A stretch of DNA of 42,295 nt from Candidatus Alectryocaccomicrobium excrementavium (GTDB lineage Bacteria; Bacillota; Clostridia; Christensenellales; Aristaeellaceae). The stretch is from the NCBI GenBank assembly GCA_018716755.1, contig DVJN01000217.1, forward strand, positions 1 to 42,295, written 5' to 3'. The position numbers were made by a program, and so were the translations under genes. Each line of letters opens with the position of its first letter. Positions within the stretch are counted from its first letter, which is position 1. Positions 4,048-36,053 of the stretch are shown here, piece after piece. The notes below the pieces were generated by a model. That model was not told the DNA's origin. It saw nothing but the letters and a program-made list of their open reading frames with translations, and made no database searches.

Positions 4048-4060
4048 GGAGGATATGGCC

Positions 4061-5829: not shown

Positions 5830-5892
5830 CGCCCCGGGCGGGAACGCTACGTTTTGCGGAAACGCAAATTTTGCTCGGGAGGCTGAAACGAT

Positions 5893-6057: not shown

Positions 6058-6077
6058 CAACTTCTTCGGATCCCCAA

Positions 6078-6112
6078 GGCGACGCGTTTCCATGCGAAAC
6101 GCGCCGCTTTTG
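6078..6112 (+). terminator. Terminator-like hairpin after DUF1540
   Basis: CGCGTTTC pairs with GAAACGCG around a five-base loop, extended by three more pairs beyond one mismatch, and followed by CTTTT. The T tract is short, so termination may be partial before the FkbM gene. Confidence 0.6.
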
Positions 6113-6172
6113 CGCATGGGGAGGGAATTTTTCTTTCCGCGCCCGCGTACAATGGGGCGGGAGCGTGATGGT

Positions 6173-7099: not shown

Positions 7100-7100
7100 A

Positions 7101-7147
7101 ATGCGGCTCTCCACCGGAAACATTTTCCGCGGAGAGCCGCATGTTTT
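7101..7147 (+). terminator. Strong intrinsic terminator after FkbM
   Basis: Twelve perfect pairs (ATGCGGCTCTCC with GGAGAGCCGCAT) around an 18-base loop that can form a small inner hairpin, followed by GTTTTAT. It separates the plus-strand operon from the convergent GRE activase gene, whose stop codon overlaps the T tract. Confidence 0.9.
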
Positions 7148-7988
7148 ATAGCGTGCGCACTTCGATGCCGCGCTTTTGGTAGGGCGCTTCGTGGATCTCC
7201 ACGGGCCGGGCAGGGTCAAAAGTGGGCGCGTAGGGCTTTGCCACCATCTCATATTTGGCTGCCGCCGTAAAGTGATAGGGGAGCAGCTCCACGCGCAGAA
7301 GGTTTTTCGCCCCTTCGAGCAGGGCGGCGGTCTGCTCGGCCGTGCCCATTGCGTCGTTCACGCCGGGAATCAGCGGTACGCGCGCGATGAAAGGCTTTTC
7401 GTGCGCCTTGAGATAGGCCAGATGGCGCAGGATGGGCGCGTTGTCCACGCCCGTGTGGCGGCGGTGCGCGGCCGGGTCGGGGTGCTTAATATCGATCATC
7501 ACCAGATCCATGGACGCGCGCATGCGGGCAAAATCCTCATCCGCGCAATAGCCGCTGGTTTCGATGGCGGTGTGCAGGCCGTCCAGCAGGGGGATCACCG
7601 CCTCGACAAAGGGCCACTGCATCATGGGCTCTCCGCCGGAAAAGGTCACGCCGCCTTCTGCCGCCAGAAACGTGCTGGCGCGCCGGAGCCGCCCGGCCAG
7701 CGCTTCCGCCTCCATGCGCTGCCCTGCGATGCGGCGCAGTCCGCCGGGGCAGACGGGCAGGCAGCGCCCGCATACCACACAGCCATCCGGGTGCCCGCAC
7801 ACAGCCCTGCACGCGCCGCAGTGCGTGCAGACGGCCGCGCTCACCATGATCTGCGGCTGGGGCGACAGGCCTTCGGGGTTGTGGCACCAGCTGCACCGCA
7901 GCGGGCACCCCTTCAGGAACACCGTGGTACGGATGCCGGGCCCGTCGTGCAGGGCGAACTCCTTGATGTCAAAAACGACGCCCGTCAT
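7146..7988 (-). CDS. Glycyl-radical enzyme activating protein (radical SAM)
   Basis: Radical-SAM activase that abstracts a hydrogen from the glycine of its partner GRE. 280 residues. GIRTTVFLKGCPLRCSWC carries the CxxxCxxC site for the SAM-binding 4Fe-4S cluster. An insert with two full ferredoxin motifs follows (CTHCGACRAVC and CVVCGRCLPVC); such eight-Cys inserts occur in activases of GRE eliminases and decarboxylases, whereas the pyruvate formate-lyase activase lacks them. FSGGEPMMQ is the SAM-binding GGE motif. The ATG at 7988 overlaps the GRE stop (ATGA), and GGAG is eight bases upstream; the longer ORF-track start is rejected. Cytoplasmic and oxygen-sensitive. Its partner is almost certainly the adjacent GRE. 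Confidence 0.95.
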   Translation of the reverse strand: MTGVVFDIKEFALHDGPGIRTTVFLKGCPLRCSWCHNPEGLSPQPQIMVSAAVCTHCGACRAVCGHPDGCVVCGRCLPVCPGGLRRIAGQRMEAEALAGRLRRASTFLAAEGGVTFSGGEPMMQWPFVEAVIPLLDGLHTAIETSGYCADEDFARMRASMDLVMIDIKHPDPAAHRRHTGVDNAPILRHLAYLKAHEKPFIARVPLIPGVNDAMGTAEQTAALLEGAKNLLRVELLPYHFTAAAKYEMVAKPYAPTFDPARPVEIHEAPYQKRGIEVRTL

Positions 7989-10012: not shown

Positions 10013-10023
10013 GGGATTCCCTC

Positions 10024-11697: not shown

Positions 11698-11710
11698 AGC
11701 CACCTCCTGG

Positions 11711-11728
11711 AATATTAACGATAATATT
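11711..11728. promoter_or_regulatory. LacI-type operator of the GH127-GRE operon
   Basis: AATATTAACGATAATATT is an inverted repeat centred on CG, with seven of eight matching positions per half-site. It lies at about +4 to +21 of the predicted transcript and immediately before the ribosome binding site, a typical place for repression. The LacI gene just upstream is the natural candidate to bind it. Confidence 0.7.
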
Positions 11729-11737
11729 TCTGCGTAT

Positions 11738-11766
11738 AGCATAGCATATCCGGGCAAAAAAAGCAA
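11738..11766 (-). promoter_or_regulatory. Promoter of the GH127-GRE-activase operon
   Basis: Minus strand TTGCTT (11761-11766), 17 bases, TATGCT (11738-11743), with a second overlapping TATGCT just upstream of that -10. The operator begins right after the expected start site. Confidence 0.6.
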
Positions 11767-11794
11767 TAGAAATTTTCAAAACAGGGGGTTGGAA

Positions 11795-12796
11795 TTATCG
11801 CGAGCTTTCCCGCTCGACGAGGCGCACATCGAGCACCGCGCGAGCAATGGGCGCATCGGGGGTTTCCATGCGGCGCAGGAGCATTTCCACGGTGCGGCGT
11901 GCCTCTTCCCCCTTATCGGCGGAAATGCTGGTGAGGCCAAAGGGCAGGCTGATACTGGAGAGGACGTTGTCGAATCCGGCGAGGCGCACATCCTGCGGGA
12001 TGGCCAGGCCGCGCGCCAGCAGCCAGCTCGCCGCCTCAAAGCCCATCAGATCGTTGAACGCGAACAGGGCGTCCACGCTGGCGCCGGAAGCAAAGAGCGC
12101 CTCCAGCGCATCGCGCACGCCGCCCGCCATGGGCTGGGCCTCGCACACGCGCACGCTTTGCCCGGCGGCTGTAAGCGCCTGCGCATATCCTTTCAGCCGC
12201 CGGGCGGCGGAGGAGGTTTCCAGCGCCGCGTTCAAAAAGACCATATGGACGCAGTTTTTCTGCAACAGGTGCTGCGCGGCGAGCAGGCCGCCCTTTTCGT
12301 CGTCCCACACTACGGCGTCCATGGGGTCATCCTCGAATTCGCGGCCCAGCAGAACGAAGGGCACGCCGAATTTGCGCAGCAGGGCGATGCTTTCCCGCCC
12401 CTTCTGGCAGGGGCAAAGGATGACGCCATCCACCCGGTGGCTGATGGCGGTGCGGATGGCCTCGCATTCGAGCCGCAAGTCCTCGTCGGTATTGAGGATG
12501 AGCGCGCGGAAATTGTGTTCGCGCAACTCGCGTTCCAGGTATTTGAAGCGCTCAGCGAAGAGGGGATTGGCCACGTCGCCCAGCACGATGGCGACGGTGT
12601 GCGAGCTGCCGGAGCGCAGCGAACCGGCCAACGCGTCGTGCACATAGCCGATGTCCCGCGCGGCTTTGCGCACGCGCTCCCTGGTCGCCGGGGCGACCAG
12701 GGGCGAATTGCGCAGCGCCAGCGAAACGGTGTTGACCGTCAGGCCGGTTTTTTGCGCGATGTGCTTCATGGTGGGGCGCTGGCTTTCTTTGCGCAT
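11795..12796 (-). CDS. LacI-family transcriptional regulator (GH127-GRE operon)
   Basis: 333 residues. The N-terminal helix-turn-helix is TMKHIAQKTGLTVNTVSLALRN (split here only for reference, residues ~9-30), followed by a hinge near ALAGSLRSG and a periplasmic-binding-protein-like effector domain (~60-325) containing TVAIVLGDVANPLFAERF and RLAGFDNVLSS. It should sense a sugar or sugar-phosphate and release DNA. ATG 12796 has GGGAGA six bases upstream. It has its own promoter, and the next gene downstream is GH127, about 97 bases away with a palindromic operator, so local repression of that operon is likely. The effector is unknown; an arabinose-containing compound is a guess from context. 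Confidence 0.92.
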   Translation of the reverse strand: MRKESQRPTMKHIAQKTGLTVNTVSLALRNSPLVAPATRERVRKAARDIGYVHDALAGSLRSGSSHTVAIVLGDVANPLFAERFKYLERELREHNFRALILNTDEDLRLECEAIRTAISHRVDGVILCPCQKGRESIALLRKFGVPFVLLGREFEDDPMDAVVWDDEKGGLLAAQHLLQKNCVHMVFLNAALETSSAARRLKGYAQALTAAGQSVRVCEAQPMAGGVRDALEALFASGASVDALFAFNDLMGFEAASWLLARGLAIPQDVRLAGFDNVLSSISLPFGLTSISADKGEEARRTVEMLLRRMETPDAPIARAVLDVRLVERESSR

Positions 12797-12825
12797 AGCA
12801 TTCTCCCGTGAATCGTGTTTTTTTC

Positions 12826-12854
12826 ACTATAGCACATGCGGGGGAAAATGGCAA
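12826..12854 (-). promoter_or_regulatory. Promoter of the LacI gene at 12796
   Basis: Minus strand TTGCCA (12849-12854), 17 bases, TATAGT (12826-12831). GTGAA and TTCAC flank the likely start site as a loose inverted repeat, perhaps for autoregulation, but this is weak. Confidence 0.6.
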
Positions 12855-12897
12855 GGGCGCAGCGGCGAAATGGACGATTTTTGCTCTGGAAACGGAG

Positions 12898-14403
12898 TTA
12901 GCTGAAATGGACGCCCGCCGCAAAAGCGTTTTGCCGGATGCCCGCTTCTGCAAGGTCATGCAGCCGGCGGCCATTCAGGCGGATGTTTTCGAAAGCGATG
13001 TTGGAGCACAGGTGTTGCGCGTCGTATCCGTGGATTTCGGAGGGCGGCATGCGAGGCGCGGAAACGGCAACGTTTCGGAAGGCGACGTCGCGAATCCTGC
13101 CGCGCCGCGTGCCGTCTTTGGAGTATTCCGGAATGTATAAAATGTACGCGCCGAAAAGGCCGGGCATATAATCGCTGTCCGGATCTTCGGCGTAGACGTC
13201 CAGGTCGCTTTTTTGCAGCATGGGGCGCTGGGAAACCGCGCCGTATTCCACGCGGATATTTTCGAAGAGAACGTCATGGATGTCCGCGTAGTCCACGTTC
13301 TTGACATCCAGCGCCACCGCCGCATTGTGGATCAGATCGCAATCGCGGAAAGTCACCCCGCAGATTTCGCGCGCGCGGGTTTCCGCGCCAAATTCCAGCG
13401 AGCATCCCCAATCGCACCAGATGACGCAGCCCTCCACCAGCACATCGCGGAAGGTATCGTGCAAAATGCCATTGTGCAGCATATCCGCCTCATCCTGCAG
13501 GTAATCAAAGCCCTTGATGCAGATGGAATCGTCATAGGTGCGCACAAAGCAATCCTTGATGTGCACGCGCTCGCAATTGTGCATATCGATGCCATCGGAA
13601 TTGTAGCGCCAGTTGCCGATGATTTTCACACCTTCGATGCGCAGATCCCGGCAGGCGATGGGGCGGATGGTATAGAGCGGCGAATCCCGGAGCGTGATGC
13701 CATCGATCTCCACGTGGTCGCAATATTCCAGCTGCACCAGGTGGCTGCGGCCTGCGTTTTCCACCGCAAACCCCTTGTTAAATTGCTCGATTTCCCTGTC
13801 GCCGAATTCAAAAAGGATTTTTTCATGGTTACGGCTGCCATCCAGGATGCCGTGGCCCAGGATGCGGATGTTGTGCGCATCGCAGGCCTCGACGCGCGCG
13901 TAAACGACGGCGCCTTCATCCAGGAACAGCGTCTGGTTGGATTGCAGGCGAATGAGGCCCACATCGTGGATGCCCTTGCCATAATAGAGCACGTTTTCAT
14001 CCCGGGGACCGGCGCCGTAGCGTTTCACCGGATCGGCAAACAGGTGCAGGGCGCAGTGGGGGCCGTCCAGTTCCACCGTATAGGCGCCAGCGCGGGGCAG
14101 TGTAAAGGATATGACGCCCGCTTCCACCCTGGGGCGCACGGCGCGGGAGAGCGGGCGCACGGTTACGCTGTGAAAAGGGCGGGATGGCTTGAGCACGATT
14201 TGCGCGGGCGCGTCCATTTCGAACAGCGCAAAGCTCGCCAGTTCGGTTTGCTCCACCGGGCGCTGGTGGCCGGGCCAGCGGCGGTTGATGGGGTGCTTCG
14301 AAACCCGCGCGCTGTACAGCGGCGTGGGCGCGCCATCAACGGTCATGGTGAAAGCCGCGCTGGGCGGCTCGCCGACGGACATGGGATATACTCTGCTGCT
14401 CAT
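12898..14403 (-). CDS. GH28-like parallel beta-helix glycosidase, copy A
   Basis: 501 residues. An N-terminal beta-sandwich (~1-130) is followed by a right-handed beta-helix. NWRYNSDGIDMHN corresponds to the NTD motif of GH28 and YDDSICIKG to its DD motif, so the catalytic Asp residues appear present. The GHG motif of classical polygalacturonases is replaced by WCDWGCSLEFGAET, and the usual RIK is not obvious. GH49 (same clan, GH-N, also with an N-terminal sandwich) is a more distant possibility. No signal peptide, so it should act on imported oligosaccharides. GAGGAG is eight bases before ATG 14403. Last gene of the transporter operon and clearly more divergent than copies B and C. Substrate is probably a galacturonan or related pectin fragment, but not certain. 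Confidence 0.82.
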   Translation of the reverse strand: MSSRVYPMSVGEPPSAAFTMTVDGAPTPLYSARVSKHPINRRWPGHQRPVEQTELASFALFEMDAPAQIVLKPSRPFHSVTVRPLSRAVRPRVEAGVISFTLPRAGAYTVELDGPHCALHLFADPVKRYGAGPRDENVLYYGKGIHDVGLIRLQSNQTLFLDEGAVVYARVEACDAHNIRILGHGILDGSRNHEKILFEFGDREIEQFNKGFAVENAGRSHLVQLEYCDHVEIDGITLRDSPLYTIRPIACRDLRIEGVKIIGNWRYNSDGIDMHNCERVHIKDCFVRTYDDSICIKGFDYLQDEADMLHNGILHDTFRDVLVEGCVIWCDWGCSLEFGAETRAREICGVTFRDCDLIHNAAVALDVKNVDYADIHDVLFENIRVEYGAVSQRPMLQKSDLDVYAEDPDSDYMPGLFGAYILYIPEYSKDGTRRGRIRDVAFRNVAVSAPRMPPSEIHGYDAQHLCSNIAFENIRLNGRRLHDLAEAGIRQNAFAAGVHFS

Positions 14404-14443
14404 GGCGATTTCTCCTCATAGCAAAATTGTGCGCAAAGCGCAG

Positions 14444-14478
14444 GCCGCACGGCGCGCCGGAAAAGCACGCCGTGCGGC
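14444..14478 (-). other. Intercistronic hairpin after the solute-binding protein gene
   Basis: GCCGCACGGCG and CGCCGTGCGGC form 11 perfect GC-rich pairs around a 13-base loop. In the operon direction no T tract follows (T residues lie before the stem instead), so it does not look like a simple terminator. A 3' mRNA-stabilising hairpin that keeps the binding-protein message abundant relative to the downstream GH28-like gene is the likely role. Confidence 0.7.
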
Positions 14479-14494
14479 AAAAAAGGTATGGAGA

Positions 14495-16273
14495 TTATTG
14501 CGCGGCGAAGTAGGCGGCGGTCGCGTCCTGATAGACCTGCTGCACCTCTTCGGCCCCCAGCTTGCGCAGTTCCTCCACAAAGGCGTCGTAGTCGCTCAGC
14601 GGCGTCGCGCCGGTGATGAACTTGGCCTCCATCTGCTTCACGTAGTCCTCCAGCGGCGTCCACAGTTCATCGATCACTTCCTGCTGGTCTTCCGTGAACC
14701 ACACGGTGGGCATGCCCTGCGTGAAGTATTCGGTGATGGTATTTATCTGCGAGGAGCGCCACGCGCCTTCAAAGGTCGTTACATCGGCATTGATGGCGGC
14801 ATAGCAGTCCACGCCATACGCGAGGGAAGCGGCCGACCATTCATCCAGCCCCATGTGGAAGCCCGTGCCCTTGTCGCGCGGGCCGATGTAGCGGCAGTAC
14901 CAGTCCCACGGCCCCAGATCTTCAGGATTCACCACGGTGGTGCGCATTTCATATTCCCATTCGCTCTCTTCCCAGGTGGGCTGGCTGATCTGCACGTAGT
15001 ACTTGAACACGGGCACGCCCAGCATGGCCTCGGGATACTTGCCCGCGGCGATATCCTCTTCCGTTACGGTGCTTACATACTCGCCAAAGGGCGCCCACGC
15101 ATCGTCCTCGGGCATGGTTTCGGTGAAGTAGGTCGGGCCATAGAGGCAACCCCAGGCGATGTAGGGATCGTACAGCAGGTCGAGGAAGCGGATGGCCAGC
15201 ACGGGATCCTCGCAATTGTCGGAGATCTGCGCGAAGCCCATGGAATAGCCGTTCTGCTGGTAATACATGGGCGTGTCGTTCACATCGGAAGTGAGCGGCA
15301 GGATGTGCTGGTATTCAAAGCAATTGTCCTCGTAGGCGGTCATCAGGAAGGGCGCCGCGTCGCCCGAATAGCCGATGACGCCATCGCGGCCTTTCACGCG
15401 GTACTGTTCGGTGGTCTGCGTGAAAATATCCGGATCGATCAGGCCTTCGGCATACAGCTGGTGCATGAATTCGAGATAGAGCTTGTAATCCTCGTGCAGC
15501 GGCATGTAGACGGCCTGTCCGTCTTTAATGGCGATGTTATTGCCATCTGTGATGAAGCCCAGCGCGTTGAAGATCGGGCCGTTGCCCTTGGGGGCATATT
15601 CCCAGGAGCCGGACCAGGGGATTTCATCCGCCTCGCCGTTGCCGTTGGGGTCGCCCTCTTTAAAGGCCTTCAGCACTTCATACAATTCCGTCAGCGTGGT
15701 GGGCATTTCCAGCCCCAGGTTGTCCAGCCAGGCCTGGTTGATCCACGTGCGCATATCGGAATAGATCAGGTTGCCCTTGTTGACATAGGGCAGGGTGTAC
15801 AGGGAGCCATCCGGCAGGGTGGCTGCGGCACGGGTGCCGGGCACCCATTCCTCAATGGCCCAGCGAATGTTTTCGCCATACTCATCCACCAGATCGTTCA
15901 GGTCGATGAAAATGCCTTCCGCGCCAAAGCGCGCGATTTCCGCCGTGGTAAAGGTGGGGCTGAAGAAAATGTCGGGATAATCGCCGGAAGCCATCAGGAT
16001 GGTCTTTCGATCGGGCCACACGGTGTTATCGATGTATTGCACTTCGCAGGTGACGCCCGTGAGTTCTTCCAGCCATTGCCACATGAACTGATCCTGCGGC
16101 TCGCCGGTGGACTGGCCGCGCAACGCGACAAAGGACAGGGTCGCCGGTTCGTCGGTCAACTTATACTGGCTCAGGTCGATGGATTCCGCTTCGGGAGCGG
16201 TTTCGGCAAAAGCGACGTTGCAAACGCCCAGCAGCAGGCACAGCAGTACGGCCAAAGAGATCGATTTTTTCAT
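14495..16273 (-). CDS. ABC transporter extracellular sugar-binding protein (LplA-like)
   Basis: 592 residues with a signal peptide (MKKSISLAVLLCLLLGVCNVAFA, quoted in part) likely cut after AFA. LGVC resembles a lipobox but has Val before Cys, so lipoprotein anchoring is uncertain. The mature part reads like large family-1 solute-binding proteins of LplA type (ATLSFVALRGQ, DPNGNGEADEIPW, YSMGFAQISDN), which capture oligosaccharides for CUT1 importers. GGAAGGAAG precedes ATG 16273. Follows the two permease genes in the same operon; no ATPase gene is in the window, so a shared MsmX-type ATPase elsewhere probably powers uptake. The GH28-like neighbours suggest a pectin-derived ligand. Confidence 0.92.
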   Translation of the reverse strand: MKKSISLAVLLCLLLGVCNVAFAETAPEAESIDLSQYKLTDEPATLSFVALRGQSTGEPQDQFMWQWLEELTGVTCEVQYIDNTVWPDRKTILMASGDYPDIFFSPTFTTAEIARFGAEGIFIDLNDLVDEYGENIRWAIEEWVPGTRAAATLPDGSLYTLPYVNKGNLIYSDMRTWINQAWLDNLGLEMPTTLTELYEVLKAFKEGDPNGNGEADEIPWSGSWEYAPKGNGPIFNALGFITDGNNIAIKDGQAVYMPLHEDYKLYLEFMHQLYAEGLIDPDIFTQTTEQYRVKGRDGVIGYSGDAAPFLMTAYEDNCFEYQHILPLTSDVNDTPMYYQQNGYSMGFAQISDNCEDPVLAIRFLDLLYDPYIAWGCLYGPTYFTETMPEDDAWAPFGEYVSTVTEEDIAAGKYPEAMLGVPVFKYYVQISQPTWEESEWEYEMRTTVVNPEDLGPWDWYCRYIGPRDKGTGFHMGLDEWSAASLAYGVDCYAAINADVTTFEGAWRSSQINTITEYFTQGMPTVWFTEDQQEVIDELWTPLEDYVKQMEAKFITGATPLSDYDAFVEELRKLGAEEVQQVYQDATAAYFAAQ

Positions 16274-16359
16274 TTTCTTCCTTCCTTTCTAAATGAATTG
16301 TAACGTCATGCACGGGGAAAGTGTCGTGCGCCCCTCCTTTCTGCTGCGTATTGTGGATC

Positions 16360-17280
16360 CTATCCCTTGAGCGCGCCGATCATTACGCCCTTGACGAAAT
16401 GCTTTTGCACAAAGGGATAGGCAACGAGAACCGGCAGGCTGGAGACGAAAATCAGCGCGTATTTCATGGATTCCGCCATCATGGAACGGCGCATCATGGC
16501 CTCCATCTGGATGCTGCTCATGCTGTTCACATCGATGTTTTTCAGCATCTGGTTTTCCATCAGGATGTTTCGCAGGATTAGTTGTAGGGGGTATTTATCG
16601 CTGTCGTTCAGGTAAATCAAAGCGTTCATGTAGGAATTCCAGTGGCCGACCGCGCAATACAGCGCGATGACGGCGATGATGGAGCCGGAAAGCGGCAACG
16701 CGATTTGGAAGAAAATCCGGAAATCGTTTGCCCCGTCGATCTTGGCGGATTCCAGCAGTTCGTTGGGTATGTTGGATTTGTAGAACGTGCGCACAATGAT
16801 CATATTGTATACGCTCAGGCCCGAGGGCAGGATCATGGCCGCACGGGTATCCAGCATGCCCAGGTTTTTGATGAGCACATAGGTGGGAATCAGGCCGCCG
16901 CCAAAATACATGGTGAACATGAAGTAAGCCATAAAGAGGTTGTGACCCTTGATATTGCGGCTCATCACATAGGCGGCGGGCATCGTCAGCGCCAGCGCGT
17001 ATATCGTGCCCACGCCGGCATAGAGGATGGAGTTGGCATAACCAATCCAGATTTCTTCGTTTTTGAAGATGTTTGTATACGGTTCCATCGTGAACCCCTT
17101 TGGCAACAGGATGACATTGCCGCCCATCAATTCATAGGGATCGCTGATGGAAGCGATGACTGTGAAATACAGCGGATAGAGGATGATGAGGATCACAATC
17201 ACCAGAAGCGCGACGTTGACGGCGTCGAACACCCGGTCAAACGTCGATCTGCGCACTTTTTCCCGCTTGGCTTTTATCAT
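16360..17280 (-). CDS. Carbohydrate ABC transporter permease (LplC-like, CUT1)
   Basis: 306 residues with six predicted membrane helices. The ATPase-coupling EAA loop is seen as LLESAKIDGANDFRIFFQIALP. N-terminal RRSTFDRVFDAVNVALL and C-terminal PFVQKHFVKGVMIGALKG are typical of the LplC/YtcP type. AGGAGG is nine bases before ATG 17280. Starts 18 bases after the partner permease, forming the inner-membrane heterodimer with it. Confidence 0.95.
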   Translation of the reverse strand: MIKAKREKVRRSTFDRVFDAVNVALLVIVILIILYPLYFTVIASISDPYELMGGNVILLPKGFTMEPYTNIFKNEEIWIGYANSILYAGVGTIYALALTMPAAYVMSRNIKGHNLFMAYFMFTMYFGGGLIPTYVLIKNLGMLDTRAAMILPSGLSVYNMIIVRTFYKSNIPNELLESAKIDGANDFRIFFQIALPLSGSIIAVIALYCAVGHWNSYMNALIYLNDSDKYPLQLILRNILMENQMLKNIDVNSMSSIQMEAMMRRSMMAESMKYALIFVSSLPVLVAYPFVQKHFVKGVMIGALKG

Positions 17281-17298
17281 GGGATAGCGCCTCCTTTT

Positions 17299-18237
17299 TT
17301 ACCACAGCGAAGTTTCCGACACGCGCCGGGCAAAGCCGTTGCAGATGACCAGCAAAACGACATTGACAACGGAACTGAACACGCCTATGGCCGTGGTATA
17401 GCTGTATTGCGCGTCCTTGATGCCCAGCCGGTAAACGTAGGTGCCGATGATGTCGGATGTTTCCATATTCAGCGAATTTTGCAGCAAAAGGATTTTTTCG
17501 TATCCCACGCTCACCAGGGAACCCACATTCAGGATCAAAAGCGTGATGATCGTTGGCAGGATGGTGGGGAGATCGATATAGAGGATTTTCTGGAAGCGGT
17601 TTGCCCCGTCGATGATGGAGGCTTCGATCATTTGCGGATCGACGCTGCTCAGCGCGGCCAGATAGATGATCGATCCCCAGCCTGTGCCCTGCCAAACCCC
17701 GCTGAGCACGTAAATCGTTTTGAAATACTGGGGCTCGGCAAGGAAGGCTACGCGTTCGCCGCCGAATGCCGCAATGATGTGGTTGAATACGCCGTTTGTG
17801 CGGTCCATAAACAGCATCATCATGGAACAGATGGCGATGGCGGAAATGAAGTGAGGGATATACGTGATCATTTGCACGCATTTTTTGAATTTTTCCGAGC
17901 GCAGCTCGTTGAGCATGAATGCGAGCAGGATGGGCATGGGGAACCCGGCAACCAGCGAATACACGCTGATGCCCAGCGTGTTGCGCAGCAGGGGCCAGAA
18001 ATTGGAGGATGTAACAAAGCGGATAAAGTGCTCCATGCCTACCCAGCTGCTGCCAATGATGCCCTTGCGGAAGGAAAAATCCTTAAACGCGATCTGGATG
18101 CCATACATGGGCACATAGCAAAAAATGAAAATGAACACTACGCCGGGGAGCAACAGCAGATACATTTGGTAATTGTTTTGCAGGTATCGCCAGAAGCGCA
18201 TCCAGCGCATACCATTGGATAGGCGGCGGTTCACCAT
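17299..18237 (-). CDS. Carbohydrate ABC transporter permease (LplB-like, CUT1)
   Basis: 312 residues with six membrane helices. The opening NNYQMYLLLLPGVVFIFIF and FKDFSFRKGI are typical of LplB-type permeases, and the EAA loop is MIEASIIDGANRFQKILYIDLP (about residues 205-226). An AAAGGA-type ribosome binding site lies ahead of ATG 18237. Pairs with the following permease for uptake of an oligosaccharide presented by the solute-binding protein. Confidence 0.95.
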   Translation of the reverse strand: MVNRRLSNGMRWMRFWRYLQNNYQMYLLLLPGVVFIFIFCYVPMYGIQIAFKDFSFRKGIIGSSWVGMEHFIRFVTSSNFWPLLRNTLGISVYSLVAGFPMPILLAFMLNELRSEKFKKCVQMITYIPHFISAIAICSMMMLFMDRTNGVFNHIIAAFGGERVAFLAEPQYFKTIYVLSGVWQGTGWGSIIYLAALSSVDPQMIEASIIDGANRFQKILYIDLPTILPTIITLLILNVGSLVSVGYEKILLLQNSLNMETSDIIGTYVYRLGIKDAQYSYTTAIGVFSSVVNVVLLVICNGFARRVSETSLW

Positions 18238-18279
18238 GAATATCCCGTCCTTTCTGGCCTGAATGGCGGTTTTATCCGA

Positions 18280-19770
18280 TCATTTCACTGTGATGTTCCT
18301 GTCCCACGCGGACATTTCGAGGCAAAGCTGCTCCGGCGCCAGGCGGCGGCCATTGAGGACGGCGTTTTCGATCACGATGTCATGGTTGCAATGCGCCTCG
18401 TCCGCCCCCACAAAGCGGCATTTGGGGCAGGGCATGTTTTCCGGGCCGTATATATGGATGTCTTCCAGGCGGATATTGTAAGTTTCGCCCAGCATATGAT
18501 CCCGCGACCACATGCCATTGTAGATGACGGATTCTATCAGCGTGGGCTGCCATGGCGCCCCGGCGGCCCCGTAAGGCGCGCTCATATCCTGTTGATACAC
18601 GGGCGGCATGTCGTGCGCGCTGTATTCGCAGCGGATGTTGCGCACCAGCATATCGTGAATGCGGGCGCGGTCGCCGTTTTGCAGGTCTATATGGATGTGG
18701 GTGCCGTGGATCAGGTCGCAATCGTCCCACAGGATGTCATAGTATTCGTCCGCGCAGGTCTCCGCGCCCAGCTCCAGGCAGCGCCCCCAGTCGCACCAGA
18801 CGGTGCAGCCGGTTACGGCAATGTGGTGCTGGCTCGTCTGATCCCAGCCCTTGATGCCCTTGAGCACGATGCAGTCGTCAAAATTGCGGAAAAATCCGTT
18901 GGCAATGCGTACATAACAGCAGTTGAAAAGATCGATGCCGTCGCTGTTGTAGCGCCACATGCCGATGGTTTTGATCCATTCGCAATTCAGCCGCTCGCAG
19001 CCGGCCAGGGTATAGGCGTATTCGGAACTGTCGCGCGCGATGACGCCCGCGATTTCGCAATCCTGGCAGGAGTACAGGCGCACGCAGCCGCGCGTGATGG
19101 GCTCGGTTTTCAAGAGGGCGCGCACGGTTTCCTCGCTGCGGCAATCCAGATCTTCCCCCCGGGCCGAGCAGATCTGCCGGCTGCGGCTGGTGCGTTCTTC
19201 GCGGCTGCCGTCGATTACGCCGTAGCCCACGATGCGCACATTTTTTTTGTGAATGGCCCATACCGAGCCATAGAGCACCGCGCCGCCATCCAGAAACAGG
19301 GTTTCGCCGTCCTCCAGCTCCAGGTTGCCCACTTCGTGCACGCCGGGGCCGAAATAGCGCACGCCCGGCGCGGCCTTGTCCACGCCAAAATCGGTGAGCG
19401 GGTTGGCAAAAATGTGCAGCGCATTGTGCCAGCCATCCAGCTCCACCGTATAGCTGCCGGGCCGGTCGATGGTAAATGCAATTTCACGGCCGCTCACGCG
19501 TGGCAAAATCCCTTTGCTCAGCGGGCGCACGACGGCTTCCTGGAAGGGCCTGCATGCCACCAGCTTCACTTCGATGGGCTCGTCCATTTCGAAGCTGATG
19601 AAAGAAGCGAGTTCCGTTTGCTCGATGGGGCGTTGCCCGCCGGGCCATACGGTATTGTAGGGCATGGCGGAAACGCGGCAGTACCAGGGAGCGGTTTTTT
19701 CGCCCTGGATAAAGGCTTCAAAGGTGGTAACCGAAAGCTCCCCGGCGGGCAGATGGTGAATTCTGTACAT
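18280..19770 (-). CDS. GH28-like parallel beta-helix glycosidase, copy B
   Basis: 496 residues, exactly the length of copy C next to it and very similar throughout, so the pair arose by tandem duplication. N-terminal sandwich with VWPGGQRPIEQTELASF, then beta-helix with YNSDGIDLFN and NFDDCIVLKGIKG holding the putative catalytic Asp residues; WCDWGRCLELGAET stands where GHG would be. No signal peptide. ATG 19770 is chosen over the GTG at 19779 because GTGAGG is properly spaced; it lies ten bases after the stop of copy C. Second gene of the transporter operon. Probably cleaves imported pectic oligosaccharides; differences from copy C (for example RSRQICSARGEDLD replaced there) may reflect a different linkage. 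Confidence 0.82.
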   Translation of the reverse strand: MYRIHHLPAGELSVTTFEAFIQGEKTAPWYCRVSAMPYNTVWPGGQRPIEQTELASFISFEMDEPIEVKLVACRPFQEAVVRPLSKGILPRVSGREIAFTIDRPGSYTVELDGWHNALHIFANPLTDFGVDKAAPGVRYFGPGVHEVGNLELEDGETLFLDGGAVLYGSVWAIHKKNVRIVGYGVIDGSREERTSRSRQICSARGEDLDCRSEETVRALLKTEPITRGCVRLYSCQDCEIAGVIARDSSEYAYTLAGCERLNCEWIKTIGMWRYNSDGIDLFNCCYVRIANGFFRNFDDCIVLKGIKGWDQTSQHHIAVTGCTVWCDWGRCLELGAETCADEYYDILWDDCDLIHGTHIHIDLQNGDRARIHDMLVRNIRCEYSAHDMPPVYQQDMSAPYGAAGAPWQPTLIESVIYNGMWSRDHMLGETYNIRLEDIHIYGPENMPCPKCRFVGADEAHCNHDIVIENAVLNGRRLAPEQLCLEMSAWDRNITVK

Positions 19771-19780
19771 GGCGCGCACC

Positions 19781-24034: not shown

Positions 24035-24109
24035 TGGAGGCGCCATCCGGATTCGGACCGGAGAATGAGGGTTTTGCAGACCCTTGCCTTACCACTTGGC
24101 TATGGCGCC
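24035..24109 (-). tRNA. tRNA-Cys (GCA)
   Basis: 75 bases with encoded CCA. Acceptor stem GGCGCCA/TGGCGCC, anticodon loop CTGCAAA giving GCA, T-loop GTCCGAATC. Last tRNA of the array, 49 bases after tRNA-Gly; that spacer contains a small CCGCGC/GCGCGG hairpin that may aid processing. Confidence 0.97.
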
Positions 24110-24158
24110 ATGCCCTTTATGGCACGCAACCGCGCCAAAGCGCGGCTGTAAAAAACAA

Positions 24159-24234
24159 TGGAGCGGTAGACGAGACTCGGACTCGCGACCTTCGCCTTGG
24201 CAAGGCGACGCTCTACCAACTGAGCTACTACCGC
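24159..24234 (-). tRNA. tRNA-Gly (GCC)
   Basis: 76 bases with encoded CCA. Acceptor stem GCGGTAG/CTACCGC, anticodon loop TTGCCAA giving GCC. Three bases separate it from tRNA-Phe. Confidence 0.97.
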
Positions 24235-24237
24235 AAA

Positions 24238-24313
24238 TGGTGCCTTGGGGCGGAATCGAACCACCGACACGTAGATTTTCAGTCTACTGCTCTACCGACT
24301 GAGCTACCAAGGC
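24238..24313 (-). tRNA. tRNA-Phe (GAA)
   Basis: 76 bases with encoded CCA. Acceptor stem GCCTTGG/CCAAGGC, anticodon loop CTGAAAA giving GAA, T-loop GTTCGATTC. Confidence 0.97.
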
Positions 24314-24317
24314 AAAA

Positions 24318-24394
24318 TGGCGACCTGGAAGGGGCTCGAACCCTCGACCTCCAGCGTGACAGGCTGGCATTCTAACCAACTGAACTACCAGGCC
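24318..24394 (-). tRNA. tRNA-Asp (GTC)
   Basis: 77 bases with encoded CCA. Acceptor stem GGCCTGG/CCAGGTC with one G-T pair, anticodon loop CTGTCAC giving GTC. Confidence 0.97.
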
Positions 24395-24400
24395 GCATCC

Positions 24401-24476
24401 TGGTGGGAACAACAGGGCTCGAACCTGTGACCCCTTGCTTGTAAGGCAAGTGCTCTCCCAACTGAGCTATGCTCCC
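24401..24476 (-). tRNA. tRNA-Val (TAC)
   Basis: 76 bases with encoded CCA. Acceptor stem GGGAGCA/TGTTCCC with one G-T pair, anticodon loop CTTACAA giving TAC. First tRNA of the array. Confidence 0.97.
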
Positions 24477-29802: not shown

Positions 29803-29848
29803 GCAAAAAGATTCCCGCCGCGCGTTGGATACGGACGCGCGGCGGGAA
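29803..29848 (-). terminator. Terminator hairpin between feoB and the dockerin protein gene
   Basis: TTCCCGCCGCGCGT pairs with ACGCGCGGCGGGAA (14 pairs, nine-base loop). On the minus strand it is followed by TCTTTTTG, so it best terminates the large secreted-protein gene; read from feoB, no T tract follows. Its first bases directly follow the feoB stop. Confidence 0.85.
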
Positions 29849-29911: not shown

Positions 29912-32900
29912 TTAACCCAGGTACAGGTCGATGATGGCGTTCACGTCAGACACGCTCAGCCGGTCATCGTTGTTGACGTTGGCGGCGAGCCACTGCTCGT
30001 GCCGCACGACCTCGGTCTTGAGGAACACATCGATGGTGAGGTTGATGTCGCTGACGCTGATTCGGCCGTCGCGGTTCACATCGCCCGCGATGGAGAGCGT
30101 TGCGGTTTCCACTTCGTTGCCGTTCACATCGAGCATGGTGATGGTGTAGCCCGTCGCGATGGTCGCGGTTGCGGCAACCGAAGCGCCGTTGCGGTCGTTC
30201 ACCTGGAAACGGCCCAGGCCATCGTTCAGGTTGCCCATCAGCGTTTGCGCGGTGGTGCCGGCCGGGATGTTGTACAGGTATTCGATGCCGGATTCCTCCA
30301 CCTGGCGGTACGGCGCGCCCGCGTTCACCACGATCTGGCTGTCAAGCGCTTCGCTGCGCGGCTCCTGATAGACATTCACGGTGATGAGCTGCTGCAGGTT
30401 GTTGGCGTCCTTCCAGAGGATCTTCAGCGAGGACTGCCGCGCGGTGGTGCCGGTGTTCTGCGTGACCATGATGCCGATGGAGGCATTGCCGGTGCCGGAG
30501 ATGGTGCGCGCCGCGCTGGCGCCCGTGGGATCCGTGGTGCGGTTGTACACCGTCAGCCAGGCGTCGGTGGTATCGATCGTCCAGTTGGTGTTGGACGAGA
30601 GGTTGAAGGTGCCGCCCGCGCCGGCGCGGTAGGTGGCCAGCAGGCTCTGGTTGGTCAGCAGGTCGGTAGAGAGCCGGGGCACGAAAGCCTCCACGTACAC
30701 GTTGATACCATTTTCCTTCGCGTACACATAGGCCGCAGAATTTTCCACGCAATGGATGCGCAGGTTCTGGTTCGCGCCGCTAAAGGCGCCAGTCGCGATG
30801 GTGGTCACGCTGTCGGGGATGCTGATCTCCTCCAGGCTCGAGCAGTTGGCAAACGCGTAGTCGCCAATGTAGGTCACGGTGGTCGGGATGCTCACTTTCG
30901 TGAGGCTGGTGCAGTTATAGAACGCGTAGGGGTTGATGTGCGTCGCCCCGCTGTTGATCGTCACGCTGGTGAGGTTCTTGCAGGACTGGAACGCGCGGTT
31001 GCTGATCGTCTTCACGCTCGAGGGAATGATCACGCTCGCGAGGCTGGAACCCTGGAACGCGCCCGTTCCAATGGAGGTTACGCTCGTGGGGATCGAGATC
31101 GAGGTGATCGAACTGTTCAGGAAGGCGTTCGCGCTGATCGAGGTGATCGTCGAAGGCAGCGTTACGCTCTTCAGGTAGCGCGAGTTGGCGAACGCGCCGC
31201 TCGCAATAGCGACGATGGTCGCCGGGGTCTCATCGTTGATGGTGCTCAGCTTCAGCTCGCTTATGTTCTTGGCCGGCGGGAACCGCAGCAGTGTGGTGCT
31301 GTAGCTGCGGGTGAAGAGCACGCCATCGAAGTCCAGGAAATTGGGGTTGCTCCCGTGCACTTCGAACGCGGCCAGGTTCGTGCAGCCATCCACAAAATCG
31401 GAGCTGATGCTGGTGACGCTGCTGGGGATGTAGAGCGAGGTCAGCTTCGTGCAGCCATTGAACGCGCCGGAACCAATGCTGGTGAGGCGGTAACCCGTGC
31501 CCTTGCCTGCCGCGCCCACGTAATTGGCCAGCTGCGTGCAGCCGGAGAACGCCTTGGCGCCGATGCTCACCAGCGAGGTCGGGATGATGATGCCGGTGAT
31601 GCGGGTGTTCATCAGCGCGCCCTCGGGCAGGCCCACCAGGCCGGAAGGAATCGTAAACGCGGTCAGATCCGTGTTGGCAAAGGCATAAGCGCCCATGGAG
31701 GTCACGCCCTGCATGCCATTCACCTGCAATAGTTCGGAGCCTTCGAACGCGTTCGCGCCGATGCTGGAAATGCAGGCGGGGATCGTCACGCTGGTGACGG
31801 TCGCATTGTTCTGGAACGCGCCATCGCCAATGGCCGTTACCACGCGGCCGCCCAGATTCGTCGGCAGGGTGATGTTGCTGGCGGTGCCCGTGTAGCCCGT
31901 GATGGTCGCCGTGGTGCCGGTGATCGTGTACTTGTAATCGCCGGAAACCATTTCGCCCGTATCCGGGTCTTCGCTGCCGCCGCCCGCGCCCACGATGATG
32001 GTCATCGTTTCCGCCGGGCCATAGACTTTGACGTTGTCGATTGTGATATAGGCGCTCAGGGCAACGGTGTAGGTCGTGTTGGCGGCAAAATTGCTGCTGT
32101 AAATCAGCATGGTGGTAAGTGTCGAGCTCGCCGGGGTGGTGGTGACGTAGGTCTTGTCGCCTCCAGTCATTTGCAGGCGGTAACCATCTGCCCCAGAGAC
32201 TGGAGTAAACATAACGCTTACGTTTGTCGGGGTGGCGATGTTCAGCGGATCGGCAGTAACAATCGCCGGGGCTGCAGGGCCGACCGTGATGCTGCCCGTG
32301 GCGAGAACGGTGTCGCCAACGCGCACTTCAAGGGTATGCATGCCGTACCCGGCAGCGGTCTTGAGAACCAGCGTTACCGTACCGGTGTCCGAAATGGTTT
32401 CGGTGGTCATGGCGGTAGTCGAGCCGTTGAAGTATAGCCCGGCCGTTTCACCGCGATGCGCCTGTCCGATGCCTTTCAACGTAACGGTGACAGTCTGATC
32501 TTTGCCCGTGAAAGCGATTACTTCCGGCTCAATGGTCATGCTGAGCGCCTTGGTGGAAACGCGTACGGTGGCGATGTCGCTATACACGCCGCCCGACTGT
32601 GCGCGCACGCCGATGGTGAAGGTTTCCGCGTCCGGCAGCGAGTCAGCCGGGATGGTCACGGTCTTTTCCGCCGTCTGCGTCCAGGCGCCATAGGCGCCCG
32701 CTTCGTCCTGGAAAGCGTATTCGTAGGTTACGCCATATTCGTTTTTCACATCGTCCGTGAAGGTGAGGATGTAGCCATCGCCCGCGGAAATGGTGTCCTC
32801 GCTGCTGGAGAGCACGGGGGTGGCAGGCTTCACGGTGAGGGAAGCGATTTCGCCGATTTGAGGCCAGTCGCCAGCGCCGTCCTGATACGTCACGCGCACC

Positions 32901-35900
32901 GAGTATTCGCCCGGCTTGCTCAGCACTTTGAACGGATAGGCCGTACCGCCGATTTCCAGGGTGATATTGCCGTTTGCGTCGCGCAGGGCGTCGGTCACCT
33001 GGATGGTGTCGATCTTCTCCTCGCCCACCTTCACGGCCAGGCGCTGCGCGTCTTCCGGCAGGTTATACACCGTCAAATTGAATTTCGCGCCCTCCACGCT
33101 CATGGAGACCTCGTTCGCAGACAGGTCGAAGCGGGGGAGGGAGCTCTCGATGATGAGAGCCACGTTCAGCTGGCTCTGGCGCGTGAGGCCGCTTTCGCTG
33201 TCCTTCTGCTCAATCACCAGCACGATTTCGGTCGAGGTTGCCTGGAAGCTGAATTCCATGGGCTGGGTCAGGTCGGTGTAGGTTTGCGCGTCGGCGCCGC
33301 GGCGGATGGTGATGGTGTCCACGCGCGGATCCAGATTCGTGGCGGAAATGCGCACCTTCGCGCTGTTGTTGGAACCCAGCAGCGCTTCTTCCACGGTGAA
33401 GGTGCCTTCCGAGAGCGGCTGCGTGCCCACGGCCACGTTCACGGTGGCGGGCTTGCCCACCACGGCGGTTTCGCCGCTGCCCTTGCGGGCTTCGATGGTG
33501 ATGGCGTAGCTCTTGCCGTCCTCGAAATTGCCGCCGGGGATGGTGATGCTGGTGCCCGTGATGGTCGAATGCTCCTTGCCGTCGATCTTTACGATGTAGT
33601 CCTCCGCGCCGCCAACTGCGTTCCAGGTGATCGTCAGCGCTTCGCCAGCGTTGTGCTCAATCTCCGTGCCCGATGTGATTGCGGGAACGGCGGGCGCGAG
33701 CTGGATGGTGGTCGTAAGGGCTTCGATATCCTCTTCTTCTCCATCCGCTCTGAAGCACACGGTGGTGGTGGAGAACATAGGATCGCCAATGGAGAATGTC
33801 GTTTCGATTTTTACGGTGCCGTTTTCGGCCGTAAAATGATCTTGCGCGAATTCAGTATTGAGTGCGGCAATCGTTAGGCTGTCTACCCCTTCGATTTCGG
33901 CGGAGAGGGTATACTTGCCGTTTTCATCCGGGTAGAGCAGGGTTTCCGGCGCTTTCACAAAGCGCGGGCTGCCCTCGTTGGTCAGGGTGATGGTATCGAT
34001 AGCGCTGCGCATCTTACCAGCTTCATACACCGCGCGCACGCCGAAGGTATGCGAGCCGGTGCTCTCAAAGTAAGAAGCGGAGATGGCGTAGCTATTTTCC
34101 GTCAGGCCGGTTTTAAGAACCTCCCAATCCGCATCGTCCGTGCTGTTGGGGTCATCGCCCTTCAGCATGGCCACCGCGTAAGTGATCTCCACGCCCTCGG
34201 CATACTGGTCGGTGTTGTAATTCCAGGTCAGCGTATAATCCTCGCCGGGGGTGTAGGTGCCTGTTTCGGCCACCGTCGGCGCGTTCAACGCGACTTTATG
34301 CGATACGTAGTTCTTCGCGGCTTCCGTGCTTTCCGGATAATACCAATTGCCGCCGTCCTCGTAGGAAGCGATGATGGTATATTGGCCGGGGGTCTTCAGC
34401 AAAGCGTTCACAGCCGCCTCTTTCGTGGTAAACGCAACGGTGCCTTCCTCTACTGCGAAGTATTCCTTCTGCTTGTTGCCAGCCGCGTCCTGCACGTTGA
34501 TGCAAACTTGCTGCACGCCTTCTGGCAGGTTCGCAAAGGTTGCGGTGATGCTGTCCGCGCCGACTACAACATTTACGGTCACCGGATGCACATACTCCGT
34601 CACCTTGAAAGCCTGCTGGGAAACCACGCCGTTAACCTTGGCTTCGATGTAGTAATCGCCAGCCTTGTAGATTGTATACGTGTATTTGCTGGGCTCGCCC
34701 TCTGCCGCTGTAAGCGTGTCGATCACGCCAGACGCGTTGCAGATGCGCACGTAATCAATGGTCGCGCCCTCGGGCACGGTGACGATGGCGGTTACGGTCG
34801 CGTTGCCTTCGCTGTTCAGCGCCACGTCCGAAACATCAATGCCCACTTCCGGCGCGTCGGTAGCGGTCAGATTCACTTCCAGCCGGTCGCCTTCAAATTT
34901 TTCCTCGTCCACCGTGGCGATTGCGCGCACGGAATACTTCGTGCCGTACTTGGCGAGGTCGGAAGAGGAGAGATACAACTTGGTATCGGTGTCAGACTGG
35001 ATGACGATCCAATCCTCTTCTTCCGCGTTTTCCGGCAGGCCCCAATACGATACTTCGTAAGCGATGTTAGCGTCTGCGTATTCCACATCCGATTCCCAGA
35101 TCAGCGTGTAGCTCGCGCCCTGCGTGTATGTGGGCTCCGAAACGAGGGCCGGAGCAACGGGAACGAAAGTGATGGTATCGCGCAGCGCGTAGTCCGCTTC
35201 TTCCTGCGCGGCGTTTTCCAACTTGATGTAAGACGTAACTTTGTAGGCTCCCGGGGTTACGGCGTTTGCGGTGAGGGTAACGCCATACATGCCATCCTTG
35301 ATTTCGGGATCAGCCACCGCTCCCGTACCAGAACCGTTGTTCACGCTGGTGTTGATGACGGCCACTTTCTCAGGAAGCCCGGTGATCTTCACATCGATCA
35401 ACAATTTCCCGTCTTCGATGCGGGTTCGGGTATCGATCTGCGGATCGTATTCGTCCGCGTTCCGGGTCTCTACGTTCTGCGACTCCGTGCTCATCAGCGT
35501 GATGCCATTTGCGGCGTCGCTGGGCACCTGGCCGCCTTCGCCCTCGTTTTCATTTCCCTGTTCGCCTTCGGGAGAAGAAGGTTCGTTGTTCTCTCCTTCC
35601 TTCGGCTCGCTGGAATCGCCTGCGGGCGCGCCCTTCACTTCGAAGGAAGCGGAGCCGCATTCGGCGCCATCGAGTTGCGCCTTGATGGTGTAGCTGCCTG
35701 CGGGCATGTTGAAAGAATTTGAAAACCGTGCCTGCCCTTCAGCATTCACGTCCAGATCAACAGGCCCCAGGGTTTTTCCCCCGCCCTCCAGCGTACTGGT
35801 GGCGTTCCCGGCGTTGGCCGGGAAGCCGCTGAAGCTGGCGGAAACGGTGGTGGTGCCATCCGCACTGGTGGTGGCATCCACGCTGATACTTACGCTTTCC

Positions 35901-35980
35901 GCCAAGGCAAAGCCGCTCATCGAGGTGATGATCAGCATCAGAGCCATCGTCAGCGCAAGCACTCGTCCTTTCAGTTTCAT
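29912..35980 (-). CDS. Giant secreted Ig/FN3-LRR-BACON-dockerin protein
   Basis: 2022 residues. Signal peptide ends ALA-E at ~27. An acidic Glu/Pro/Ser-rich linker (about 115-155) is followed by alternating Ig-like and FN3-like beta-sandwich modules to ~1330 (FN3-like ones open PALVSEPTYTQG, VPAITSGTEI, ATPVLSSSED and the like). Residues ~1340-1750 are BspA-type leucine-rich repeats (SVTIPACISSIGANAFEGS pattern). Next comes a BACON-like domain (~1773-1860, GTFNLSSNTNWTIDTTDAW). Two dockerin repeats close the protein (GDVNRDGRISVSD and VNNDDRLSVSDVN). ATG 35980 follows GAGGGGG and lies after the promoter; the ORF-track ATG at 36034 is upstream of the transcription start. No enzyme domain is seen: a binding, adhesion or scaffold-docked surface protein is likely. 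Its cohesin partner is outside the window. Confidence 0.9.
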   Translation of the reverse strand: MKLKGRVLALTMALMLIITSMSGFALAESVSISVDATTSADGTTTVSASFSGFPANAGNATSTLEGGGKTLGPVDLDVNAEGQARFSNSFNMPAGSYTIKAQLDGAECGSASFEVKGAPAGDSSEPKEGENNEPSSPEGEQGNENEGEGGQVPSDAANGITLMSTESQNVETRNADEYDPQIDTRTRIEDGKLLIDVKITGLPEKVAVINTSVNNGSGTGAVADPEIKDGMYGVTLTANAVTPGAYKVTSYIKLENAAQEEADYALRDTITFVPVAPALVSEPTYTQGASYTLIWESDVEYADANIAYEVSYWGLPENAEEEDWIVIQSDTDTKLYLSSSDLAKYGTKYSVRAIATVDEEKFEGDRLEVNLTATDAPEVGIDVSDVALNSEGNATVTAIVTVPEGATIDYVRICNASGVIDTLTAAEGEPSKYTYTIYKAGDYYIEAKVNGVVSQQAFKVTEYVHPVTVNVVVGADSITATFANLPEGVQQVCINVQDAAGNKQKEYFAVEEGTVAFTTKEAAVNALLKTPGQYTIIASYEDGGNWYYPESTEAAKNYVSHKVALNAPTVAETGTYTPGEDYTLTWNYNTDQYAEGVEITYAVAMLKGDDPNSTDDADWEVLKTGLTENSYAISASYFESTGSHTFGVRAVYEAGKMRSAIDTITLTNEGSPRFVKAPETLLYPDENGKYTLSAEIEGVDSLTIAALNTEFAQDHFTAENGTVKIETTFSIGDPMFSTTTVCFRADGEEEDIEALTTTIQLAPAVPAITSGTEIEHNAGEALTITWNAVGGAEDYIVKIDGKEHSTITGTSITIPGGNFEDGKSYAITIEARKGSGETAVVGKPATVNVAVGTQPLSEGTFTVEEALLGSNNSAKVRISATNLDPRVDTITIRRGADAQTYTDLTQPMEFSFQATSTEIVLVIEQKDSESGLTRQSQLNVALIIESSLPRFDLSANEVSMSVEGAKFNLTVYNLPEDAQRLAVKVGEEKIDTIQVTDALRDANGNITLEIGGTAYPFKVLSKPGEYSVRVTYQDGAGDWPQIGEIASLTVKPATPVLSSSEDTISAGDGYILTFTDDVKNEYGVTYEYAFQDEAGAYGAWTQTAEKTVTIPADSLPDAETFTIGVRAQSGGVYSDIATVRVSTKALSMTIEPEVIAFTGKDQTVTVTLKGIGQAHRGETAGLYFNGSTTAMTTETISDTGTVTLVLKTAAGYGMHTLEVRVGDTVLATGSITVGPAAPAIVTADPLNIATPTNVSVMFTPVSGADGYRLQMTGGDKTYVTTTPASSTLTTMLIYSSNFAANTTYTVALSAYITIDNVKVYGPAETMTIIVGAGGGSEDPDTGEMVSGDYKYTITGTTATITGYTGTASNITLPTNLGGRVVTAIGDGAFQNNATVTSVTIPACISSIGANAFEGSELLQVNGMQGVTSMGAYAFANTDLTAFTIPSGLVGLPEGALMNTRITGIIIPTSLVSIGAKAFSGCTQLANYVGAAGKGTGYRLTSIGSGAFNGCTKLTSLYIPSSVTSISSDFVDGCTNLAAFEVHGSNPNFLDFDGVLFTRSYSTTLLRFPPAKNISELKLSTINDETPATIVAIASGAFANSRYLKSVTLPSTITSISANAFLNSSITSISIPTSVTSIGTGAFQGSSLASVIIPSSVKTISNRAFQSCKNLTSVTINSGATHINPYAFYNCTSLTKVSIPTTVTYIGDYAFANCSSLEEISIPDSVTTIATGAFSGANQNLRIHCVENSAAYVYAKENGINVYVEAFVPRLSTDLLTNQSLLATYRAGAGGTFNLSSNTNWTIDTTDAWLTVYNRTTDPTGASAARTISGTGNASIGIMVTQNTGTTARQSSLKILWKDANNLQQLITVNVYQEPRSEALDSQIVVNAGAPYRQVEESGIEYLYNIPAGTTAQTLMGNLNDGLGRFQVNDRNGASVAATATIATGYTITMLDVNGNEVETATLSIAGDVNRDGRISVSDINLTIDVFLKTEVVRHEQWLAANVNNDDRLSVSDVNAIIDLYLG

Positions 35981-36024
35981 GGTCAATTCCCCCTCAAACA
36001 AGGTATTTGTATCCATCTGCGGGT

Positions 36025-36053
36025 ATTCTATCATATGTTTCGGGACTTGTCAA
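36025..36053 (-). promoter_or_regulatory. Promoter of the dockerin/LRR protein gene
   Basis: Minus strand TTGACA (36048-36053), 17 bases, TAGAAT (36025-36030). Expected start near 36018, which leaves about 38 bases of leader and settles the start codon at 35980. Confidence 0.85.

Follow-up and report, generated by a model that had tools for sequence, protein, structure and literature searches.

A dockerin-tailed leucine-rich repeat protein without an enzyme domain, and its candidate cohesin partner, in Candidatus Alectryocaccomicrobium excrementavium

We analysed a 42,295-nucleotide stretch of DNA (hereafter the window; contig DVJN01000217.1 of GenBank assembly GCA_018716755.1, positions 1 to 42,295 of the forward strand) from Candidatus Alectryocaccomicrobium excrementavium, a member of the family Aristaeellaceae (Clostridia; Christensenellales). 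An uninterrupted open reading frame (ORF; 29912-36034 on the reverse strand, 2040 amino acids) encodes a secretory-type protein in which a long modular stalk and a block of leucine-rich repeats (LRRs) end in a dockerin. On another contig, C239, the same genome encodes P0002, a protein with five tandem repeats of predicted cohesin fold, and we consider it fairly probable (about 0.6) that the dockerin docks the LRR protein on P0002 of the same cell. The source is a metagenome-assembled genome (MAG) of 3.05 Mb that is 83% complete, in which the window is contig 147. It is the sole member of its genus in the genome collection compared, and the best matches of its RpoB protein (69-71%) include uncultured Clostridia MAGs.

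Domain architecture of the dockerin-LRR protein

With residues numbered from the opening of the ORF at 36034 (Met19 corresponds to base 35980), the protein begins with a signal peptide, an immunoglobulin (Ig)-like module, an acidic linker and alternating Ig-like and fibronectin type III (FN3)-like modules. These are followed by a block of BspA-type LRRs, a BACON-like module, a module that has no family match in a Pfam scan of the segment, and the dockerin (Table 1). Five FN3-like modules (residues 294-392, 585-686, 784-868, 1070-1162 and 1253-1349) align with one another, and their alternation with Ig-like modules agrees with an earlier reading of the sequence alone (the sequence-only reading), which had counted at least five. 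Single-module Pfam matches in the stalk (fn3/Big) all fall under the cut-off, so that “FN3/Ig-like” is correct but no finer label applies.

The many BspA leucine-rich repeats that had been described are recognized by LRR_5 (PF13306; 251 bits, E 1.9e-75, cut-off 27.7), and the block has solved BspA-like LRR relatives (PDB 4fs7, E 5e-45; 4gt6; 4h09). PF13306 repeats are common to the window protein and to the BspA-family LRR surface proteins; to our knowledge, BspA itself has no dockerin. The NCBIfam labels HupY/LrrG adhesin and Gli349 were rejected, as their scores are far under the cut-offs, with the best stretches lying within the LRR region. A second BspA-type LRR protein of 463 amino acids, which has no dockerin, is encoded on contig C18 of the same genome (L130:3929-5317, forward strand). 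For the proposed BACON domain, the segment scanned alone gives 21.5 bits (PF13004, cut-off 25, E 2e-4), which makes “BACON-like” a fair description and falls short of Pfam certification. No enzymatic family was matched anywhere in the protein in whole-protein Pfam and NCBIfam scans. The observation of a dockerin-tailed LRR protein without an enzyme domain is thus confirmed.

The dockerin segment matches Dockerin_1 (PF00404) at 28.4 bits, and at 27.1 bits in a six-frame search of the genome (cut-off 22.9); a scan of the entire protein gives 19.9 bits. Its two repeats of about 22 residues (DVNRDGRISVSD and NVNNDDRLSVSD) carry Asp or Asn at loop positions 1, 3, 5 and 12, and EF-hand models score about 15 bits on the segment, under their cut-offs. 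The C-terminal repeats are hence those of a real two-repeat dockerin, and not the unrelated EF-hand-like Ca sites that had been named as the alternative. The second Ca loop departs slightly from the usual form, with Asp in place of Gly at position 6. Positions 10, 11, 17 and 18, which are in contact with the cohesin in known complexes, read V, S, I and D in both repeats; such internal symmetry would be expected if the dockerin has two equivalent binding faces. No other dockerin was detected in the 3.05 Mb genome by the six-frame search, even at E 1. A cellulosome has dockerin-bearing carbohydrate-active enzymes on a scaffoldin; here, the only dockerin detected in the 83% complete genome is on a non-enzymatic protein.

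A candidate cohesin partner and its relatives in the family

The Pfam cohesin model has no match in the genome. We also searched with a profile (A1) of eight aligned cohesin stretches, which are Pfam cohesins from genomes of the same bacterial family (five genomes supplied sequences). This profile retrieves solved cohesins, and in the genome of the host it has one match (G000:C239:20168-20515, E 7.9e-6), after which the conclusion from Pfam alone that the genome has no cohesin was judged insufficient. The match lies in a gene on contig C239 (G000:C239:20069-23074, forward strand) whose product, P0002 (1002 amino acids), has a signal peptide, as does the dockerin-LRR protein, followed by five tandem repeats of about 130 amino acids and a 250-amino-acid C-terminal domain. 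The genome therefore does not lack a cohesin-like protein, a lack that would have refuted the sequence-only reading.

In profile-profile comparison, A1 matched the five P0002 repeats with 95% probability (E 2.4e-8), as compared with 3.9%, 7% and 0.2% for the FN3 and Ig modules of the window protein, which served as controls; these low values also rule out the window protein's own Ig/FN3 modules as hidden cohesins. In the reverse search with a profile of the P0002 repeats, the top match outside the genome was a Pfam-certified cohesin in a family relative (G147, E 5e-4). Three of the four PDB sequence matches of the repeats are cohesins, and the top one is a CLIPPER domain (9ifr).

The AlphaFold model of repeat 1, made from its alignment with the four sister repeats, has a mean predicted local distance difference test score (pLDDT) of 92.7 and a predicted template modelling (TM) score of 0.82. 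Solved cohesins fill Foldseek ranks 1 to 9 for this model (best E 8e-7), among them those of Ruminococcus flavefaciens ScaB, Archaeoglobus fulgidus, Clostridium acetobutylicum, Clostridium thermocellum OlpC and Clostridium perfringens, and CLIPPER follows at rank 10. Given this ranking and the confidence of the model, repeat 1 very probably has the cohesin fold. For repeat 4 (pLDDT 74, TM 0.75 to 2vo8), Foldseek places CLIPPER first; the matches that follow are mostly cohesins of C. perfringens and C. acetobutylicum, interspersed with integrin domains, and the agreement with the cohesin fold is less clean for this repeat. The four repeats other than repeat 1 are assigned the cohesin fold by homology, with less certainty.

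Contig C239 and the window are similar in GC content (0.605 and 0.603, respectively) and in tetranucleotide profile (r 0.978, a value above those of four other contigs of the genome, while sixteen stretches of related genomes reach at most 0.863), which makes a binning error unlikely. As a candidate for a domain shared among cohesin proteins, the C-terminal domain of P0002 was set aside: its single significant relative is a protein of G225 that has CxxC repeats and no cohesin, and profile comparison with three such domains gave 28%. These results are suggestive at most, and we did not count them as evidence.

Across 150 genomes of the family, 23 carry dockerins. The Pfam cohesin model finds cohesins in five of the 150 and A1 in 13, all of which fall within the 23 dockerin-bearing genomes (hypergeometric P 6e-13). 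When the host and the five source genomes of the profile are left out, all seven A1-positive genomes are among the 17 of 144 that bear dockerins (P about 9e-8). Proteins that combine LRRs and a dockerin occur in three relatives, G068, G105 and G040 (two cases in the last, one of them with its dockerin under the cut-off), with a weak case in G149. Family relatives (G050, G147, G105, G114, G068, G040 and G149) thus share LRR-dockerin proteins (G068, G040 and G105) and secreted cohesin proteins with the host, and their dockerin proteins carry LRR, transglutaminase or peptidase parts. Their cohesin proteins mostly have one cohesin followed by CxxC repeats, in contrast to the five tandem cohesin-fold modules of P0002, which lacks such repeats. 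Among the family genomes, a clear orthologue was found for neither protein: searches of 250 of them with P0002 gave weak partial matches only, and the C-terminal 261 amino acids of the dockerin-LRR protein matched only themselves in the 150. Among 84,980 named genomes, no relative of the whole protein was confirmed.

Most secreted single-cohesin proteins of the family continue into many CxxC repeats of the type ATCTETGLTEGKKCTVCGE (L124, L125, L127, L165, L171 and L182). These repeats are a recurrent companion of cohesins in the family and are sometimes followed by a shared C-terminal domain. Dockerin matches were also seen in other settings. In G081 (contig 105, L138:4302-6848, reverse strand), two dockerin matches lie in the extracytoplasmic part of a protein that resembles serine/threonine kinases and has a single predicted membrane segment; it appears to be a receptor kinase with dockerin sensors. 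G149 encodes a 1950-amino-acid RHS-repeat protein whose N-terminal, dockerin-like match falls slightly short of the cut-off (L132:995-6844, reverse strand) and a 1231-amino-acid protein in which several dockerin matches (the genome search gave three) accompany a short LRR stretch (L131:6678-10370, reverse strand); no cohesin was found in the G149 genome.

A possible docking system and its alternatives

Binding of the dockerin to P0002, retention of this scaffold at the cell surface and binding of a ligand by the LRR block are what we infer from these data. Both proteins would be secreted; the FN3/Ig array would act as a stalk, and the binding part of this recognition or adhesion protein would be the BspA-type LRR block, possibly together with the BACON-like module. 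The C-terminal dockerin would be a Ca-dependent plug into one of the five cohesin modules of P0002, so that up to five copies of the LRR protein could be displayed together as a multivalent recognition complex. The sequence-only reading had suggested either a cohesin-bearing surface scaffold or a non-cellulosomal use of dockerins, and the five-module cohesin-fold protein, together with the only detected dockerin on a non-enzymatic protein, supports that interpretation. That the system is altogether enzyme-free, with one scaffold of five cohesins that serves only to display a single LRR recognition protein in multivalent form, is a tentative extension that we hold to be less likely than not.

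LRR-dockerin proteins are not unprecedented, since they recur in the host's family and are known in R. flavefaciens FD-1, in which 28 LRR modules are found among dockerin proteins and LRR-dockerin proteins are minor cellulosome clients (Rincon et al. 2010, PMC2930009). Those proteins share with the window protein a signal peptide, leucine-rich repeats, a C-terminal dockerin and the lack of an enzyme (PMC2930009). They are, however, a minor component of an enzyme-rich cellulosome that has more than 200 dockerin proteins, whereas no second dockerin was detected in the host; they also have neither the long FN3/Ig stalk nor the BACON-like module that the window protein adds. Cohesins are also used outside cellulosomes in C. 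perfringens (PDB 2vo8, 2jh2 and 2w1n), and these cohesins, along with those of R. flavefaciens and C. acetobutylicum, are the closest solved folds to the P0002 repeats; they are attached to secreted glycosidases, while the modules of P0002 form a non-enzymatic tandem array. Compared with a scaffoldin, P0002 has five cohesin-fold modules, none of them Pfam-certified, and no carbohydrate-binding module, SLH domain or dockerin. What is unusual is that a single non-enzymatic dockerin faces a single protein with five cohesins; the missing 17% of the genome is the main caveat to this count. In a limited check of the open-access literature, we found no description of a genome whose only dockerin is non-enzymatic and faces one multi-cohesin protein.

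Several observations weigh against docking on P0002. The best score of the Pfam cohesin model (PF00963) on the repeats is 14.9 bits (cut-off 24.1), the CLIPPER (DUF11) domain of adhesin stalks is structurally almost as close to them, and integrin domains match at E <0.001, which indicates that a generic beta-sandwich contributes. The CLIPPER domain of fibrillar adhesins (PDB 9ifr, PMC12617251) resembles the repeats in length and in its beta-sandwich; no counterpart of its isopeptide-forming Lys near the N-terminus was seen in the first strands of repeat 1 or repeat 4, and the CLIPPER/DUF11 model (PF01345) scores 19.3 bits on repeat 1 (cut-off 24.6). The two genes are on different contigs, with no operon link, and at 83% completeness further dockerins, including enzyme-borne ones, or cohesins may be missing. 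The P values for co-occurrence ignore phylogenetic relatedness, and some A1 matches sit in proteins that themselves carry a dockerin, for which reasons we treat co-occurrence as support and not as proof.

Anchoring is a further difficulty. Of the two kinds of anchor that the sequence-only reading had named, sortases are present (four are encoded in the genome) and SLH domains are absent from it in a profile search. Neither the dockerin-LRR protein nor P0002 has an LPXTG-type signal at its C-terminus, or a C-terminal membrane segment in a hydropathy scan. The claim of a cohesin-bearing surface scaffold therefore stands for the secreted five-module cohesin-fold protein, and its “surface” part stays conditional because SLH domains and LPXTG-type signals are lacking.

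Among the alternatives, it is unlikely that the dockerin is real and has another partner, either a cohesin of another gut bacterium or one in the missing part of the genome, with the C239 repeats forming an ordinary adhesin stalk. An incomplete genome would allow this, 10 of the 23 dockerin-bearing family genomes have no A1 match at E 0.001, and Ruminococcus albus, which has 58-90 dockerin proteins and one or no cohesin, has been proposed to dock between species (PMC4081043); however, repeat 1 is predicted with high confidence to fold like a cohesin, and the C239 repeats match family cohesins specifically when compared with controls. We regard as distinctly improbable a conventional enzyme cohesin-dockerin system in which the LRR protein is one of many clients and the rest have been lost to MAG incompleteness or are too divergent. 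LRR-dockerin proteins do have that minor role in the R. flavefaciens cellulosome (PMC2930009), and the window carries plant-polysaccharide genes (GH127, GH28 and arabinofuranosidase). Strains of R. flavefaciens have about 180-220 dockerins (PMC4081043), though, as against a single one here, and the loss of 17% of a genome cannot hide that many; moreover, neither the GH127 nor the GH28 protein encoded in the window has a dockerin. It is very improbable that the dockerin no longer docks and is kept as a Ca-stabilised C-terminal cap, with the C239 protein unrelated, as the unusual second Ca loop and the lack of a known anchor might suggest, since a mere cap would not need identical residues at positions 10, 11, 17 and 18, and since dockerins and cohesins co-occur in the family.

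Cohesin-dockerin pairs are among the strongest protein-protein interactions known and have been studied mostly as organisers of enzymes. If the enzyme-free reading is correct, the assembly principle of the cellulosome would have been reused for adhesion in a gut bacterium, and a minimal enzyme-free system of one dockerin and one scaffold would be a clean case for a long-suspected non-cellulosomal role. Standard cohesin models also miss partners: the lineage-specific profile finds more cohesin-bearing genomes than Pfam, all of them with dockerins, which suggests that some “orphan” dockerins may not be orphans.

Start site and surroundings of the gene

Translation probably starts at Met19. A strong promoter-like site (36053-36025) overlaps the upstream ATG of the ORF, and a purine-rich Shine-Dalgarno sequence (GAGGGGG) precedes the ATG at 35980, after which the signal peptide begins; this start coincides with the gene boundary given in the sequence-only reading.

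Table 1. Features of the dockerin-LRR gene and protein in the window.
Feature	Position	Strand	Basis
Dockerin-LRR protein, probable coding sequence (2022 amino acids from Met19)	29912..35980	-	Start placed by promoter and Shine-Dalgarno
Sigma-70-like promoter, TTGACA-N17-TAGAAT with TG extension	36025..36053	-	11/12 consensus matches; consensus scan only
Signal peptide, MKLKGRVLALTMALMLIITSMSGFALA	35897..35980	-	Only strongly hydrophobic stretch of the protein (hydropathy scan)
Acidic Glu/Gly/Ser/Pro-rich linker, residues 136-190	35465..35629	-	Sequence
Stalk of FN3-like modules alternating with Ig-like modules, residues 198-1349	31988..35443	-	Internal alignments
BspA-type leucine-rich repeat block, residues 1366-1780	30695..31939	-	PF13306
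BACON-like beta-sandwich module, residues 1816-1890	30365..30589	-	PF13004, sub-cut-off
Module between BACON-like module and dockerin, residues 1895-1980	30095..30352	-	X-module position; position only
Type I dockerin, two Ca-loop/F-helix repeats, DVNRDGRISVSDINLTIDVFLK and NVNNDDRLSVSDVNAIIDLYLG	29930..30088	-	Pfam Dockerin_1
GC-rich hairpin then T run, probable terminator	29805..29845	-	Sequence; hairpin not listed by consensus scan

The gene stands alone and is convergent to feoB, with the hairpin and T run between the two. Upstream, on the same strand, lies an ORF for a family 2 glycosyltransferase, and beyond it rpoB on the opposite strand. The plant-polysaccharide genes of the window (58-19779) encode an arabinofuranosidase C-terminal domain, a glycoside hydrolase family 127 (GH127) beta-L-arabinofuranosidase, a GH28 protein, two sugar-type ATP-binding cassette permeases and a glycyl-radical enzyme. 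Five clustered tRNA genes (Cys, Gly, Phe, Asp and Val) are found at 24035-24476 on the reverse strand.

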